64,000 bases of DNA from Weissella thailandensis (GTDB lineage Bacteria; Bacillota; Bacilli; Lactobacillales; Lactobacillaceae). Under the pieces are notes generated by a model, which searched no databases, was not told the DNA's origin, and saw nothing but the letters and a program-made list of their open reading frames with translations. This document shows, one piece after another, positions 4,893 to 56,182 of the stretch. Every line of letters begins with the position of its first letter. The first letter of the stretch is position 1. Made by a program: the position numbers and the translations under genes. The stretch spans positions 1 to 64,000 of the forward strand of contig NZ_BJEC01000005.1 in assembly GCF_005405465.1 (NCBI RefSeq). Reading direction: 5' to 3'.

Positions 4893-5043
4893 CCTTCAAA
4901 GCGACTTATGTCACACTCTATAAATGCGTTCCAAAAATCTGAAGCCTTAATGTAACGCCATTCCCGTCCTGCGCTTTGCTACGGCCAAAAATGACGCAAA
5001 TCACGTTACACACCAGCTTCAAAGCAATTTTTGTCACGCTCTA
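4893..5043. repeat. Compound hairpin repeat (copy B) preceded by a right-arm remnant
   Basis: A right-arm remnant (4893-4919) leads into a full unit at 4920-5043. Stems, from base to apex: AAAAAT with ATTTTT, TGAAGC with GCTTCA, TGTAACG with CGTTACA, TGCG with CGCA. The apical loop contains TTGCTACGGCC and the unit ends GTCACGCTCT. The stop codon of the minus-strand gene that follows is formed inside the end of the repeat. Confidence 0.85.
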
Positions 5044-5640: not shown

Positions 5641-6027
5641 AGTAGTCTCCTTATTAGAAGTTGAAACAAAAGAAAATGGTCCAACCTTTTCTGTGCTAAA
5701 AATATATTAATTATAAGTCTGTAATTTTAATAGCATAAACGCGTTCCAAAAGTCTGAAGCCTCAATGTAACATCATTTACACCATTCCTGTCCTGCGCTT
5801 CGCTACGGCCAAAAATAGCGCAAATAACGTTACACACTGGCTTCAAAACAACTTTTGTCTCGCTCTCATTAAACGATAAAATAATAGTTTAATTCTATCC
5901 GGGGGCGTGCGACGTGTCAAACAAGCTAGTGACTGATAAAATATGATGAAATTGAACAATTCAAAGCATATTGACTATTAATTTGGTATGATTAAAGGTA
6001 TTGAGAAAATAAGAAGGAGGCGCGGAC
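5641..6027. other. Divergent intergenic region with hairpin repeat copy C and ecf promoter
   Basis: This 387-base gap between the divergent methyltransferase and ecfA1 genes holds hairpin repeat copy C (5734-5866) and, close to ecfA1, an extended -10 box TGGTATGAT at about 5984-5992. I see no coding potential. Confidence 0.6.
5734..5866. repeat. Compound hairpin repeat (copy C)
   Basis: This unit opens with CATAAACGCGTTCC and ends GTCTCGCTCT. Stems from base to apex: AAAAGT with ACTTTT, TGAAGCC with GGCTTCA, TGTAAC with GTTACA, TGCGCT with AGCGCA. The apical loop includes TTCGCTACGGCC. Unlike the other full copies it lies between divergent genes, so it sits in upstream rather than downstream DNA. 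Confidence 0.85.
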
Positions 6028-19225: not shown

Positions 19226-19624
19226 TGATTGTGTAGCAGACTAGTTCGGGAAATATTTTCCCAAAAACCACTTGCAAACAATCATCAAATCAAGTAACTT
19301 ATTTATTAGATAATTATTAGAGAAAATGTGATGAAGAGAAGAGTAATTTCTAATTAGTTTGTCCAGAGAAGGTCGTAAGCTGAGAAGACCACAAGCGAAC
19401 AGAAACGAAGATGAACTCGGAGCAATAATAATTGTGCAAGCACTTATTACGGTTAGACCCGTTAACGTCTCACTTACAAATTAGTAAGTGAATGAGGTAC
19501 TTTTTGAAAAAAGGTACAAATTAAGGTGGTAACGCGAAGCTTTCGTCCTTGTATAAGGGGCGAAGGCTTTTTATTTGCAAAAGTTTTAGTCATTAAAATA
19601 GTTAAACCAATTGGGGGAAGTATC
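19226..19624. other. Intergenic region occupied mainly by the T-box leader
   Basis: Apart from the T-box leader at 19319-19577, about 90 bases of AT-rich promoter DNA remain. A TTGCAA (19272-19277) is the best -35 candidate. No gene is seen. Confidence 0.6.
19319..19577 (+). ncRNA. T-box leader controlling the M20 peptidase gene
   Basis: Stem I (about 19330-19420) contains the AGTA and distal AGAGAAGG/GAGAA features. The T-box sequence AAGGTGGTAACGCG is at 19523-19536, and a terminator follows at 19537-19574. The T-box is a slight variant, with GTAACG in place of the usual GTACCG. The specifier is not certain: ATG (Met) at 19411-19413 is followed by A, as in the trp leader here, while GAT (Asp) at 19410-19412 is the alternative. 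Uncharged tRNA would favour antitermination. Confidence 0.9.
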
Positions 19625-33558: not shown

Positions 33559-34079
33559 TTAGGAATGACAACCGGGCTTAAAGCATTTCTTGTCACACTC
33601 TGCATAAACGTGCTCCAAGTAGCTGAATTCTCAATGTAAGGCAATTAATGGTGTTCTTGTTCTTCGCGTTGCTCCGCCCAAAAACACCATTAATAACCTT
33701 ACAACCGAATTCAAAGCGCTACTTGTCACACTCTGTAAACGCCTTCCACCAAGCAGCATTCCTTATATAAGCCCAATTTCGCCCCAGCCGCTTGCAGCGC
33801 CAGGGAACGAAACAGGTCTTATACCGGAATGCAAAGCGCTTGATGTCATGCTCTGCATAAACGTGCTCCAAGAAACTGAGTCCTTAATGTAACGAGATTC
33901 CACGATTCCTGATCTTCGCGCTGCTACGATCAAAAAACGTGGTACCGTCGTTACAATCGGACTCAAAGCATTTCTTGTCACACTCTGTTTTTACTAACTT
34001 AAGAAAAGTATGTTAACATATAAGTGAAATGAAGCGCTTGCTTCATCACACAATAAAAATAATAGAGGGAGTACAAATA
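33559..34079. other. Intergenic region filled by a compound-hairpin array
   Basis: About 420 of these 521 bases are hairpin repeats (33567-33986). The remaining part upstream of the reductase gene has a perfect inverted repeat TGAAGC-CGTT-like operator: TGAAGC, four bases, GCTTCA at 34028-34043. Open frames here are by-products of the repeats and are not believed to be genes. Confidence 0.65.
33567..33986. repeat. Tandem array of three compound hairpins with a leading right-arm remnant
   Basis: A remnant (33567-33602) is followed by units at 33603-33734, 33735-33854 and 33855-33986. Unit 1 stems: AAGTAGC/GCTACTT, TGAATTC/GAATTCA, TGTAAGG/CCTTACA, ATTAATGGTGTT/AACACCATTAAT. Unit 2: CAAGC/GCTTG, GCATTCC/GGAATGC, TATAAG/CTTATA. 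Unit 3: CAAGAAA/TTTCTTG, TGAGTCC/GGACTCA, TGTAACGA/TCGTTACA, CCACG/CGTGG. Every unit starts with (CA)TAAACG and ends GTCAxxCTCT. The arms differ between units but stay complementary. Confidence 0.88.
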
Positions 34080-49140: not shown

Positions 49141-49445
49141 TAAAAAAATCCGCCCATAACTACTAAAAGTTAAGGACGGATTTTTCCGCGGTGCCACCTT
49201 AATTTAATTAATTGGGTCACCAAAAAAGGTGCATGTCATTGACAATACCCAACTAATTACGCTTAGCGAAGGACCAACATCCTTCCGGCAACTGACGTAT
49301 GCCAACACGTTTCTCCGTACTTGAAAGATTTTTTCGGGAGAACCCTCAGTGGTCCATTTAATTATCTGCGTTCGATTGCACTCTCACCAACAGCAATTCT
49401 CTTTGCGTGCACAATAATCTTGATCTCCACATCATCGGTTTATTT
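49141..49445 (-). ncRNA. tRNA-Trp T-box leader of the trp operon
   Basis: On the minus strand: stem I with the distal AGAGAATTGC and GTGAGAG elements, the specifier codon TGG (Trp) at 49356-49354 followed by A, the T-box sequence AAGGTGGCACCGCGG (about 49200-49186) and the terminator formed by AAATCCGTCC and GGGCGGATTTTTTT. Uncharged tRNA-Trp pairing would prevent termination and switch on trpDCFBA. Family knowledge and the visible motifs agree. Confidence 0.96.
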
Positions 49446-54279: not shown

Positions 54280-54867
54280 ATGAGTGATTTTTTGGATATC
54301 AAGCAAGCCATTATGGCCGATGAACAGAATCAGGCATATACTGCGCGTGGTATTGGACCAGTTTATCAAGTTGGTCCTGATGTTCGCATATTGATTATTG
54401 GCCAAGCACCTGGTGCAAAAGTAGAGCAGACCGGGATACCCTTTAATGATAAAAGTGGTGATCGTTTGCGAGAATGGATGGGGATTACTGCCGACGAGTT
54501 TTACAATAGCGGTAAAGTAGGGAACCTACCATTAGATTTCTATTTTCCAGGTAAAGGAAAGAGTGGTGATATGCCACCACGTAAAGGATTTGCTGAAAAA
54601 TGGCATCCTAAAATGCTAGCTGATATGCCAAAAGTATCGCTGATTATTTTGGTTGGCGCTTATGCGCAACGTTACTATTTGCCAATCAAAAAATCTGAGA
54701 CAATGACAGCGGTTATTAAACGCTCACAAGAATTTGAGCCAAAGTTCATGCCCATCGTCCATCCGTCACCAAGAAATAATATTTGGTTGCGGAAGAATCC
54801 GTGGTTCGAAGCTGATGTCGTGCCTAGACTACAGGCGCGCGTGCGTGAGTTAATGGACGAGAAGTAA
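54280..54867 (+). CDS. Uracil-DNA glycosylase family protein
   Basis: A 195-residue member of the uracil-DNA glycosylase superfamily. The N-terminal catalytic block IIGQAPGAKVEQTGIPFNDKS (split over residues 45-65) and the C-terminal MPIVHPSPRNNIW with the conserved His are clear. This fold excises uracil or damaged bases, but this subgroup (a lactic acid bacterial type with GQAPG) has no defined substrate that I know. It starts 4 bases after the alpha-glucosidase stop, with AAGAAGG as ribosome site, so both share a transcript. Function in base repair is inferred. Confidence 0.85.
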   Translation: MSDFLDIKQAIMADEQNQAYTARGIGPVYQVGPDVRILIIGQAPGAKVEQTGIPFNDKSGDRLREWMGITADEFYNSGKVGNLPLDFYFPGKGKSGDMPPRKGFAEKWHPKMLADMPKVSLIILVGAYAQRYYLPIKKSETMTAVIKRSQEFEPKFMPIVHPSPRNNIWLRKNPWFEADVVPRLQARVRELMDEK

Positions 54868-54878
54868 AATTGTAAAGT

Positions 54879-54913
54879 AAAAGCACAGATGCGCGAAGCA
54901 TCTGTGCTTTTGT
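54879..54913 (+). terminator. Terminator after the UDG-like gene
   Basis: AAAGCACAGATGC pairs with GCATCTGTGCTTTTG. Confidence 0.9.
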
Positions 54914-54921
54914 TGATTTTA

Positions 54922-55340
54922 GAGTTTAAAACGGTAACTAATCAGCTCTTCATAAACGTGTTCCAACAAGCAGCATTCCTTATATAAGTCCAATTTTGAC
55001 CCAGCCGCTTTGCAGCGTCAGGGCACAAAACAGGCCTTATACCGGAATGCTAAACGCTAGTTATCACACTCTTTCATAAACGCGATTAATTTTCAGTCCG
55101 GCCAATATAACGGTATCTGTACCTGCATGCCTACGCAGTCGCTACGGCGAAGCAGATACAGATACCGTTATATTAACCTCCAAAACGAAAATTAATCAGC
55201 TCTCTTTTCATAAACGCGATAAGTTACCAGTCCATCAAAAATAAGCGATAAATATGTCACACACCTACGCAGTCGCTACGGCGGTGCGCCAAATTTATCA
55301 CTTATTTTGGATTCCAAAACGGTAACGTATCAGCTCTCTC
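54922..55340. repeat. Tandem array of three compound hairpins with a leading right-arm remnant
   Basis: A remnant (54922-54950) is followed by units at 54951-55072, 55075-55205 and 55209-55340. Unit 1: AACAAGC/GCTAGTT (one mismatch), GCATTCC/GGAATGC, TATAAG/CTTATA. Unit 2: GATTAATTTTC (55084-55094) with GAAAATTAATC (55187-55197), and a perfect 17-bp inner stem (55104-55120 with 55158-55174). Unit 3: GATAAGTTACC (55218-55228) with GGTAACGTATC (one mismatch), and a 19-base inner stem (55238-55256 with 55290-55308) with two mismatches. Units 2 and 3 share the apical loop CCTACGCAGTCGCTACGGCG. All units begin CATAAACG and end in CTCT or CTCTC. Confidence 0.9.
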
Positions 55341-55342
55341 TT

Positions 55343-56182
55343 TTACTCAAATTCTTCGTATTCGTTTGGATCTTGACCATCGATACGACCGTCTTCTTGA
55401 TTTAGTTCGTTGATTGCTGCGATTTCGTTGTTTTCTAATGCGAAATCGAAGACATCAAGATTTTCACGTTGGTGAGCAGGGTTAGCCGAACGTAGAACTG
55501 GCACAATACCACGGTCAATATGCCAACGTGTAATAATTTGACTTGTTGACTTGCCATACTTATCGGCAATCTTTTTGACAACTGGTTCCTTTAGTGCTGA
55601 ACTACCACGGCCAAGTGGGCTCCAGGCTTCAACCTTGATACCACGGCGCATATTTTCTAAGACATTGTCTTCTTGTACCCAGTAAGGGTGAATTTCAATT
55701 TGGTTAACTGCTGGCTTAACACCAGTTTCTTCAATAATACGATCTAGATGTTCAGGCTCGAAGTTAGATACACCAATTGAGCGGATCAAACCTTGCTTTT
55801 GTGCATCAACTAAAGCTTGCCAAGCTTCAACATATAAGCCGCGCTTTGGCAATGGCCAGTGAATAATATACAAATCAAAGTAATCAATTCCCATACGGGC
55901 TAATGATTCTTGGATAGCATTACGGGCACTTTCATAGTCATGATATTTACCAGGCAATTTTGAGGTAATGTAAAATTCTGAACGTGGAACGCCAGAATAA
56001 CGGATTGCTTTACCAACAATTCCTTCATTGTCGTAATTAGTAGCTGAATCAATGAGACGATAACCGCTTTTAATTGCTGCCAGAATTTGTTGGAATCCTG
56101 CGCCACCTTTCAGTTGATAAGTACCAAGACCTAAATTAGGTAGTTGATGACCATCATTCAATGTAACATTTGGAATTGACAT
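55343..56182 (-). CDS. Aldo/keto reductase (2,5-diketo-D-gluconate reductase type)
   Basis: A 279-residue AKR5-like enzyme using NADPH to reduce aldehydes or ketones. The catalytic residues fall in LIDSATNYDNEGIVGK (Asp, Tyr), FYITSKLPG (Lys) and LYIIHWPLP (His), and NQIEIHPYWVQEDN is a further family block. The ATG at 56182 has GGAGG upstream on the minus strand. It lies convergent with the UDG-like gene, with the hairpin array ending just before its stop codon. Substrate unknown. Confidence 0.9.
   Translation of the reverse strand: MSIPNVTLNDGHQLPNLGLGTYQLKGGAGFQQILAAIKSGYRLIDSATNYDNEGIVGKAIRYSGVPRSEFYITSKLPGKYHDYESARNAIQESLARMGIDYFDLYIIHWPLPKRGLYVEAWQALVDAQKQGLIRSIGVSNFEPEHLDRIIEETGVKPAVNQIEIHPYWVQEDNVLENMRRGIKVEAWSPLGRGSSALKEPVVKKIADKYGKSTSQIITRWHIDRGIVPVLRSANPAHQRENLDVFDFALENNEIAAINELNQEDGRIDGQDPNEYEEFE

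Follow-up and report, generated by a model that had tools for sequence, protein, structure and literature searches.

The three hairpin units that stand in a row near 55 kb of the window, i.e., of the whole 64,000-nucleotide stretch of Weissella thailandensis DNA that was analysed, are almost certainly members of one conserved RNA family, read from the minus strand. For this family, computation shows which strand carries the RNA, that the hairpin base is conserved, that the distribution is wide, that stop codons are preferred and that copies have been gained or lost. The units lie between two convergent genes, one on the plus strand for a protein of the uracil-DNA glycosylase superfamily, which is 99% identical to its counterpart in W. 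fangxianensis and 96% to that in W. paramesenteroides, and one on the minus strand for an aldo/keto reductase (Table 1). The aldo/keto reductase gene is the probable carrier of the array, and the array would place three members of a multi-copy family of structured RNA in the 3' end of its mRNA. The order along this mRNA would be stop codon, hairpin units, remnant half-unit and terminator; 5 nt separate the stop codon from the start of the unit 3 RNA, and the inverted repeat, which has A and T runs on its flanks, is a probable bidirectional intrinsic terminator. Half-units that hold the 5' half of the RNA are often seen between the last full unit and a terminator, as at 54918-54950 in the window and at loci L053 and L041.

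Table 1. Positions of the hairpin units in the window and of the features that flank the array near 55 kb
Feature	Position	Strand	Evidence
Unit 3, class B, RNA hairpin	55209..55340	-	R2 match 55209-55337, 30.6 bits, E 2e-5
Unit 2, class B, RNA hairpin	55075..55205	-	R2 match 55075-55203, 49.3 bits, E 3e-10
Unit 1, class C, RNA hairpin	54951..55072	-	R2 match, 78.5 bits, E 1e-17
Truncated unit with just the 5' half of the RNA, between terminator and unit 1	~54918..54950	-	direct repeat D1 with ends of units 2 and 3
Inverted repeat flanked by A and T runs	54879..54911		14-nt arms, 100% complementary, 5-nt loop
Aldo/keto reductase gene	55343..56182	-	ORF; PF00248, E 6.7e-50
Uracil-DNA glycosylase superfamily gene	54280..54867	+	ORF; PF03167, E 5.9e-24
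Class-A unit, 33.6-kb array	33603..33734	-	R2 134.3 bits
Class-C unit, 33.6-kb array	33735..33854	-	R2 60.9 bits
Class-A unit, 33.6-kb array	33856..33986	-	R2 121.6 bits
Class-A unit	5734..5866	-	R2 139.1 bits
Class-A unit, starts at stop codon of minus-strand gene	4919..5042	-	R2 107.9 bits; 2-nt overlap of gene end with unit end

The first-pass annotation, made from the letters of the DNA alone, described units 2 and 3 as pairs of long stems closed by a shared loop, and this description stands with some corrections to the counts. The basal stem of unit 2 has 11 perfect base pairs, as claimed, and its inner stem has 22 of 23 possible pairs, which exceeds the 17 that had been counted. The basal stem of unit 3 has the claimed 10 of 11 pairs, and its inner stem is present with 16 of 19 pairs rather than 17. 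The 20-base loop is identical in the two units (55130-55149 and 55264-55283), and its 14-base core has no further match within the window when up to two mismatches are allowed. Unit 1 does resemble a unit at 33.7 kb, with 102 identities in 122 aligned columns, which is 84% (85% by BLAST) and not the proposed 90%. The folding energy of the region is -130.9 kcal/mol compared with a mean of -79.9 kcal/mol for shuffled sequences (z = -10.5), and none of 100 shuffles comes as low. For all three units, the RNA of the minus strand is more stable than that of the plus strand by 13 to 16 kcal/mol: -51.3 against -36.8 kcal/mol for unit 3, -66.6 against -51.0 for unit 2 and -50.6 against -37.7 for unit 1.

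The strand from which the RNA is read can be seen from the mismatches in the stems. In the orientation used by the first-pass annotation these are mostly A-C, which corresponds to G-U in the RNA of the other strand. Among the 97 distinct Weissella units, mismatches that give G-U in the minus-strand RNA (A-C) number 245 and those of the opposite kind (G-T) 43; with the 6 units of genus g3 added (11 against 7) the ratio is 256 to 50 for 103 units. Other genera contribute 114 units, with a ratio of 225 to 29; by pair column, 33 favour this strand and 3 oppose it. The bias holds whichever contig strand a unit lies on (172 to 36 and 84 to 14), and from this follows that a mutation bias linked to the replication strand is not sufficient to explain it. 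Within Weissella, a sign test by pair columns falls short of significance (p = 0.13, with 23 columns for and 13 against), because related copies share their states. When this genome is compared with W. fangxianensis (G024) over 13 presumed ortholog pairs, four of which align only partly and may not be one-to-one, 19 changes are of the G-U kind and 4 of the other. The RNA strand also folds more stably than its complement in all 10 class-B and all 4 class-C units, and in 98 of the 100 class-A units. The mean strand difference for the 100 class-A units is -19.0 kcal/mol, of which shuffled sequences reproduce -10.6 kcal/mol, so that about half of the difference in stability is accounted for by base composition.

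The pairing itself is conserved through compensatory changes. In an alignment of 13 class-A units (A1), both partners are changed in at least one unit at 24 of the 42 pairs, compared with a mean of 12.7 in shuffles and with none of 500 shuffles as high, and the signal of the hairpin is destroyed when the pairing partners are slid relative to each other. In a larger alignment (A4) of 38 sequences in RNA orientation, to which units of other species had been added, such changes are found at 35 of 43 pairs, 92.1% of the cells pair and again no shuffle among 500 comes as high. Compensatory changes beyond those of shuffles and a strand-specific wobble, the two marks of a structured RNA, are thus both found in the family. 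It could be that perfect stems are maintained by template switching between the two arms, which could give the 66 cells with both-sided changes in A1 next to a handful of one-sided ones. Such a process is compatible with selection on the RNA, which is the better explanation of the strand-specific G-U bias.

As RNA, a unit is one long hairpin of about 120-135 nt (5th to 95th percentile 120-133) with a 3-bp stem, a UGA/GAR internal loop in which tandem G-A pairs are possible, a helix of free sequence that is about 8 bp long, a GNUU bulge of 4 nt and an upper part that varies. The consensus of the base over 216 distinct units is 5'-AGAG-Y-G-W-GA, followed by the helix of free sequence (~8 bp), the GNUU bulge and GA-R-C-R-C-GUUU. 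The counts behind it are A 205, G 207, A 208, G 209, C/T 109/106, G 214, T/A 128/57, G 209 and A 189 on the 5' side, and G 195, A 210, A/G 165/50, C 210, G/A 109/105, C 211, G 202 and T 209, 211 and 209 on the 3' side. The first long helix is unbroken over at least 8 bp in 145 of the 216 units, it is followed by a GNTT bulge in 176, and its 8 bases occur as 108 different 5' strands. Together with the nearly invariant terminal bases, this bears out the earlier remark that constant ends enclose variable stems and loops. The outermost bases, CATAAACG at one end and CACTCT at the other, do not match as inverted repeats, and just three pairs join the ends. Classes B and C vary the base motif or are without part of it; class B has pairs in place of the UGA/GAR loop, and this accounts for the 11-bp stem of the first-pass annotation. 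In one unit of genus g3 (L080:1440-1625), the inner stem is similar to a terminator-like hairpin in the flank of the same unit, and it looks as though the hairpin had taken up neighbouring sequence.

The three loop classes that had been distinguished are variants of a single family. A model (R1) built from A1 has 31 matches in this genome at E <= 1e-6, and it has matches in at least 10 of 60 genomes, this one included, from 2 genera; BLAST of the two arrays against the same genome gives 6 and 22 places, self included. A second model (R2) was built from A4, which contains no class-B unit and none of the class-C units of this genome, and in which the rows from G007 resemble class C. R2, i.e., class A plus other species, matches all three units of the array on the minus strand, none of them in its alignment, at E-values some of which are only approximate. 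The five further units that R2 finds in the window all score higher on the minus strand, and three of them also match the plus strand more weakly, as hairpins do.

The family extends far outside Weissella. In a draw across the family Lactobacillaceae, R2 matches at E <= 1e-5 occur in at least 175 of 397 genomes and at least 21 of 40 genera, and in a draw across the order they occur in at least 58 of 395 genomes and at least 22 of 80 genera. A class-wide draw of 398 genomes, with a stricter threshold (E <= 1e-7) and the best 8 candidates per genome, gave this genome and none of the 397 others. With fuller scoring, 13 chosen genomes have from 5 to 136 R2 matches each, this one 43, and these counts may include the weaker opposite-strand match of the same hairpin. 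A further 20 loci, 12 of which come from other families of the order, have the same architecture when read. In genus g39, one genome (G396) has 134 matches, nearly identical to Weissella class A, another (G410) has at least 8 and the other listed genomes have 1 to 3; the units of G396 and G410 look like the result of a recent transfer and burst. Searches of plasmids with both window arrays and of phages with the 33.6-kb array gave no match, and a plasmid or phage origin of the window arrays is rejected on these grounds. Of five plasmid searches with units from other genera, four were empty and one returned 16 records. Plasmid carriers confirmed by R2, with one record each, are Lacticaseibacillus paracasei, Lacticaseibacillus rhamnosus, Pediococcus acidilactici and Lactiplantibacillus plantarum.

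Consider now where the units stand relative to genes. When the first unit of each array is taken together with ORFs of at least 80 codons, 71 of 178 such units have their RNA 5' end within -2 to +10 nt of a stop codon, compared with 0 of 156 for the opposite end, examined in four of the five sets. The remaining 107 first units lie outside this interval of any stop codon. The stop-adjacent fraction is 40/85 in other genera, 11/30 in W. fangxianensis, 5/21 in this genome, 7/25 in W. paramesenteroides and 8/17 in other Weissella and g3. Of 77 arrays in other genera, 59 have, upstream of the RNA, a gene on the same strand as the RNA. In this genome, a minus-strand gene ends at the RNA 5' side in only 13 of 29 class-A units, and 14 of the 29 lie between two genes that run the opposite way, where the RNA would need a promoter of its own. 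One of the plasmid copies is found inside a PTS operon in antisense orientation, and some units come after leader terminators. TAG makes up 28 of 56 adjacent stops and 37 of 106 stops of background ORFs (p = 0.067), and no enrichment is claimed. At locus L267, a T-box leader match (1069-1453, 385 nt, 58.9 bits with a gathering score of 93) encloses a unit on the same strand (1186-1304), and a second unit follows after it at 1501-1621.

Stable hairpins after stop codons, T runs after some units and, by eye, the resemblance of the inner stem in genus g3 to an intrinsic terminator all fit the idea that the units are themselves transcription terminators or attenuators. A separate terminator-like site is however found within 220 nt downstream of 62 of 169 arrays, typically 40-60 nt past the array end, compared with 3 of 169 in an upstream control, and downstream of 38 of 67 stop-adjacent arrays. 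An intrinsic terminator needs, moreover, neither an invariant base nor a bulge nor an internal loop, and we regard this idea as quite improbable.

The reading that we favour, with modest confidence and from the sequences as they stand, is that the family is a mobile 3'-UTR module which acts through its base. The constant base would be bound by a host protein that is itself conserved, either an RNase or an RNA-binding protein, and the hairpin, placed beside the terminating ribosome and before the terminator, would set the processing or the stabilisation of the mRNA 3' end. New copies would spread as small cassettes, consisting of a unit, an AT-rich spacer and sometimes a terminator, through the action of some enzyme. 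The constant base, in combination with a freely varying 8-bp helix, makes the hairpin a ready bait for a binding partner. Food production and probiotics make wide use of Lactobacillaceae, most of which are not known to carry Hfq. If the module has an effect on mRNA ends, these bacteria would have in it a common layer of gene control. The tie to stop codons raises the question of how a small repeat arrives there and what in the cell reads it. A bolder version, which we think unlikely, is a system throughout the order Lactobacillales, where the base of the module at the stop codon would be read by a dedicated protein or by the terminating ribosome, where tens of unrelated genes would come under a shared post-transcriptional control of their mRNA ends, and where insertion would be guided by RNA or by translation termination.

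Copies of the family are gained or lost between relatives, where gain and loss are not distinguished from each other. W. paramesenteroides, W. bombi, W. hellenica and W. sagaensis have an array at the same intergenic site with different sets of units, and by eye half-units lie at the same place in L094-L097. When 30 loci of this genome are compared with W. fangxianensis, from which 29 stretches were taken from 38 R1 matches, 13 have a unit there between both flanks, 5 match on one flank and 12 on none. Eight of the 12 loci without a known counterpart, chosen for that absence, were used as queries; of the 7 sites that could be read, none holds a full unit and two keep a half-unit. In comparison with W. 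paramesenteroides, the stretch that is absent at one locus (L057) consists of a unit, an AT-rich spacer and a terminator stem. Control alignments with more distant genomes (L053/L257 and L058/L254) are too poor to read. At another site in W. fangxianensis (L093:6600-6747), the contig breaks beside the site, after an insertion-sequence-like start inside the terminator.

Two kinds of mover were searched for in the unit-bearing genomes, of which there are 10 among 60. The Y1 transposase domain (Y1_Tnp, PF01797) is absent from this genome and present in only one (G021) of the 10 unit-bearing genomes; reverse transcriptase (RVT_1, PF00078) is likewise absent from this genome and above cut-off in only one of the 10 (G022). 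With each absent in 9 of 10, both an HUH/Y1 transposase and a reverse transcriptase are rejected as movers. The same absence bears on the proposal that the units are elements at the DNA level, with hairpin ends that are recognised by an HUH/Y1 transposase or another recombinase. Constant ends around a variable middle, mobility and possible direct repeats of ~5-8 bp, seen by eye in the terminator T runs at a few insertion sites, are what such an element would have. A DNA hairpin would however show no G-U bias, so that the strong asymmetry between G-U and A-C, which favours one RNA strand, counts against it. The first-pass annotation had suggested that the ends are recombinase or transposase sites; they are instead found to pair with each other at the base of the minus-strand RNA hairpin, and a DNA-level element appears highly improbable.

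The main rival to a 3'-UTR module with a function in the host is a purely selfish repeat, small and mobile, where the RNA fold serves its own spread or its tolerance in mRNA tails and leaders, and where the closeness to stop codons reflects an insertion preference together with purging elsewhere. Such a repeat would be expected to go missing from orthologous sites, to leave half-units beside full units, to reach tens of copies per genome, to travel on plasmids and to land even inside a T-box leader, all of which is seen, and the burst of near Weissella-like units in G396, with few in other g39 members, is of the same character. It is harder to reconcile with an array that is kept at the reductase stop codon in five species and with a G-U bias that is present also among recent changes, and no mobilising enzyme was found in a search that covered Y1_Tnp and RVT_1. 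On balance we hold the selfish repeat to be doubtful.

Membership in a known RNA family had been named in the first-pass annotation as something that would refute its reading. When the units are compared with Rfam 15, every family stays below its gathering score. In the whole window, only two T-box leaders reach theirs, at 19322-19553 (+) and 49169-49444 (-), both away from the units. When the two arrays are searched in a weak mode nothing comes near threshold, the best match being a miRNA model with 26.3 bits against a required 79 (E 0.0056), and no family reaches its threshold in 16 loci of other genera. A known Rfam RNA is rejected for all three sets, and no Rfam entry exists for a hairpin RNA that reaches tens of matches per genome (5 to 136) in the 13 genomes counted. 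In the open-access literature, to which the search was confined, no description of the hairpin family was found.

Several described repeats are comparable in kind. ERIC and NEMIS are about 100-160 bp in size and have terminal inverted repeats, as in a MITE. According to the passages on them in two papers, they are dispersed palindromic repeats, in enterobacteria and Neisseria, respectively, which form long RNA hairpins when co-transcribed with genes (PMC1590033, PMC2267715). The units here differ from them in being without an outermost inverted repeat and in having a conserved RNA base motif, helices of free sequence and a spread over many genera. REP/BIME-RAYT elements are also multi-copy extragenic hairpins near gene ends. 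REPs are 20-40 bp (PMC3733652). They are tied to Y1 transposases, whereas the present units are about 120-135 nt and Y1_Tnp is absent from 9 of the 10 genomes that bear them among those searched. BOX elements have a modular boxA/B/C layout. A passage on BOX elements describes them as modular intergenic repeats of Streptococcus pneumoniae with RNA-fold potential (PMC2267715). In being intergenic and able to fold as RNA they are like the units here, as far as that description goes.

The nearest lead is Efa-1 of Enterococcus faecalis, which could be a relative. It is reportedly called EFAR in a 2007 paper by Venditti and colleagues. The passages on Efa-1 in two papers describe intergenic stem-loop repeats of 163 bp, with 65 sequences (18 bracketed in the table) and a predicted conserved structure, and the 2006 paper mentions unpublished preliminary data according to which Efa RNA may stabilise co-transcribed mRNA (PMC2267715, PMC1590033). 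Efa-1 and the present units are alike in being intergenic repeats of a Lactobacillales genome; by description alone, Efa-1 is set apart as an adjacent stem-loop pair in one species (PMC2267715, PMC1590033). The Efa-1 pair may be a hairpin plus a terminator, and if the two are homologous the family has a relative that is already partly described at the level of a single species.
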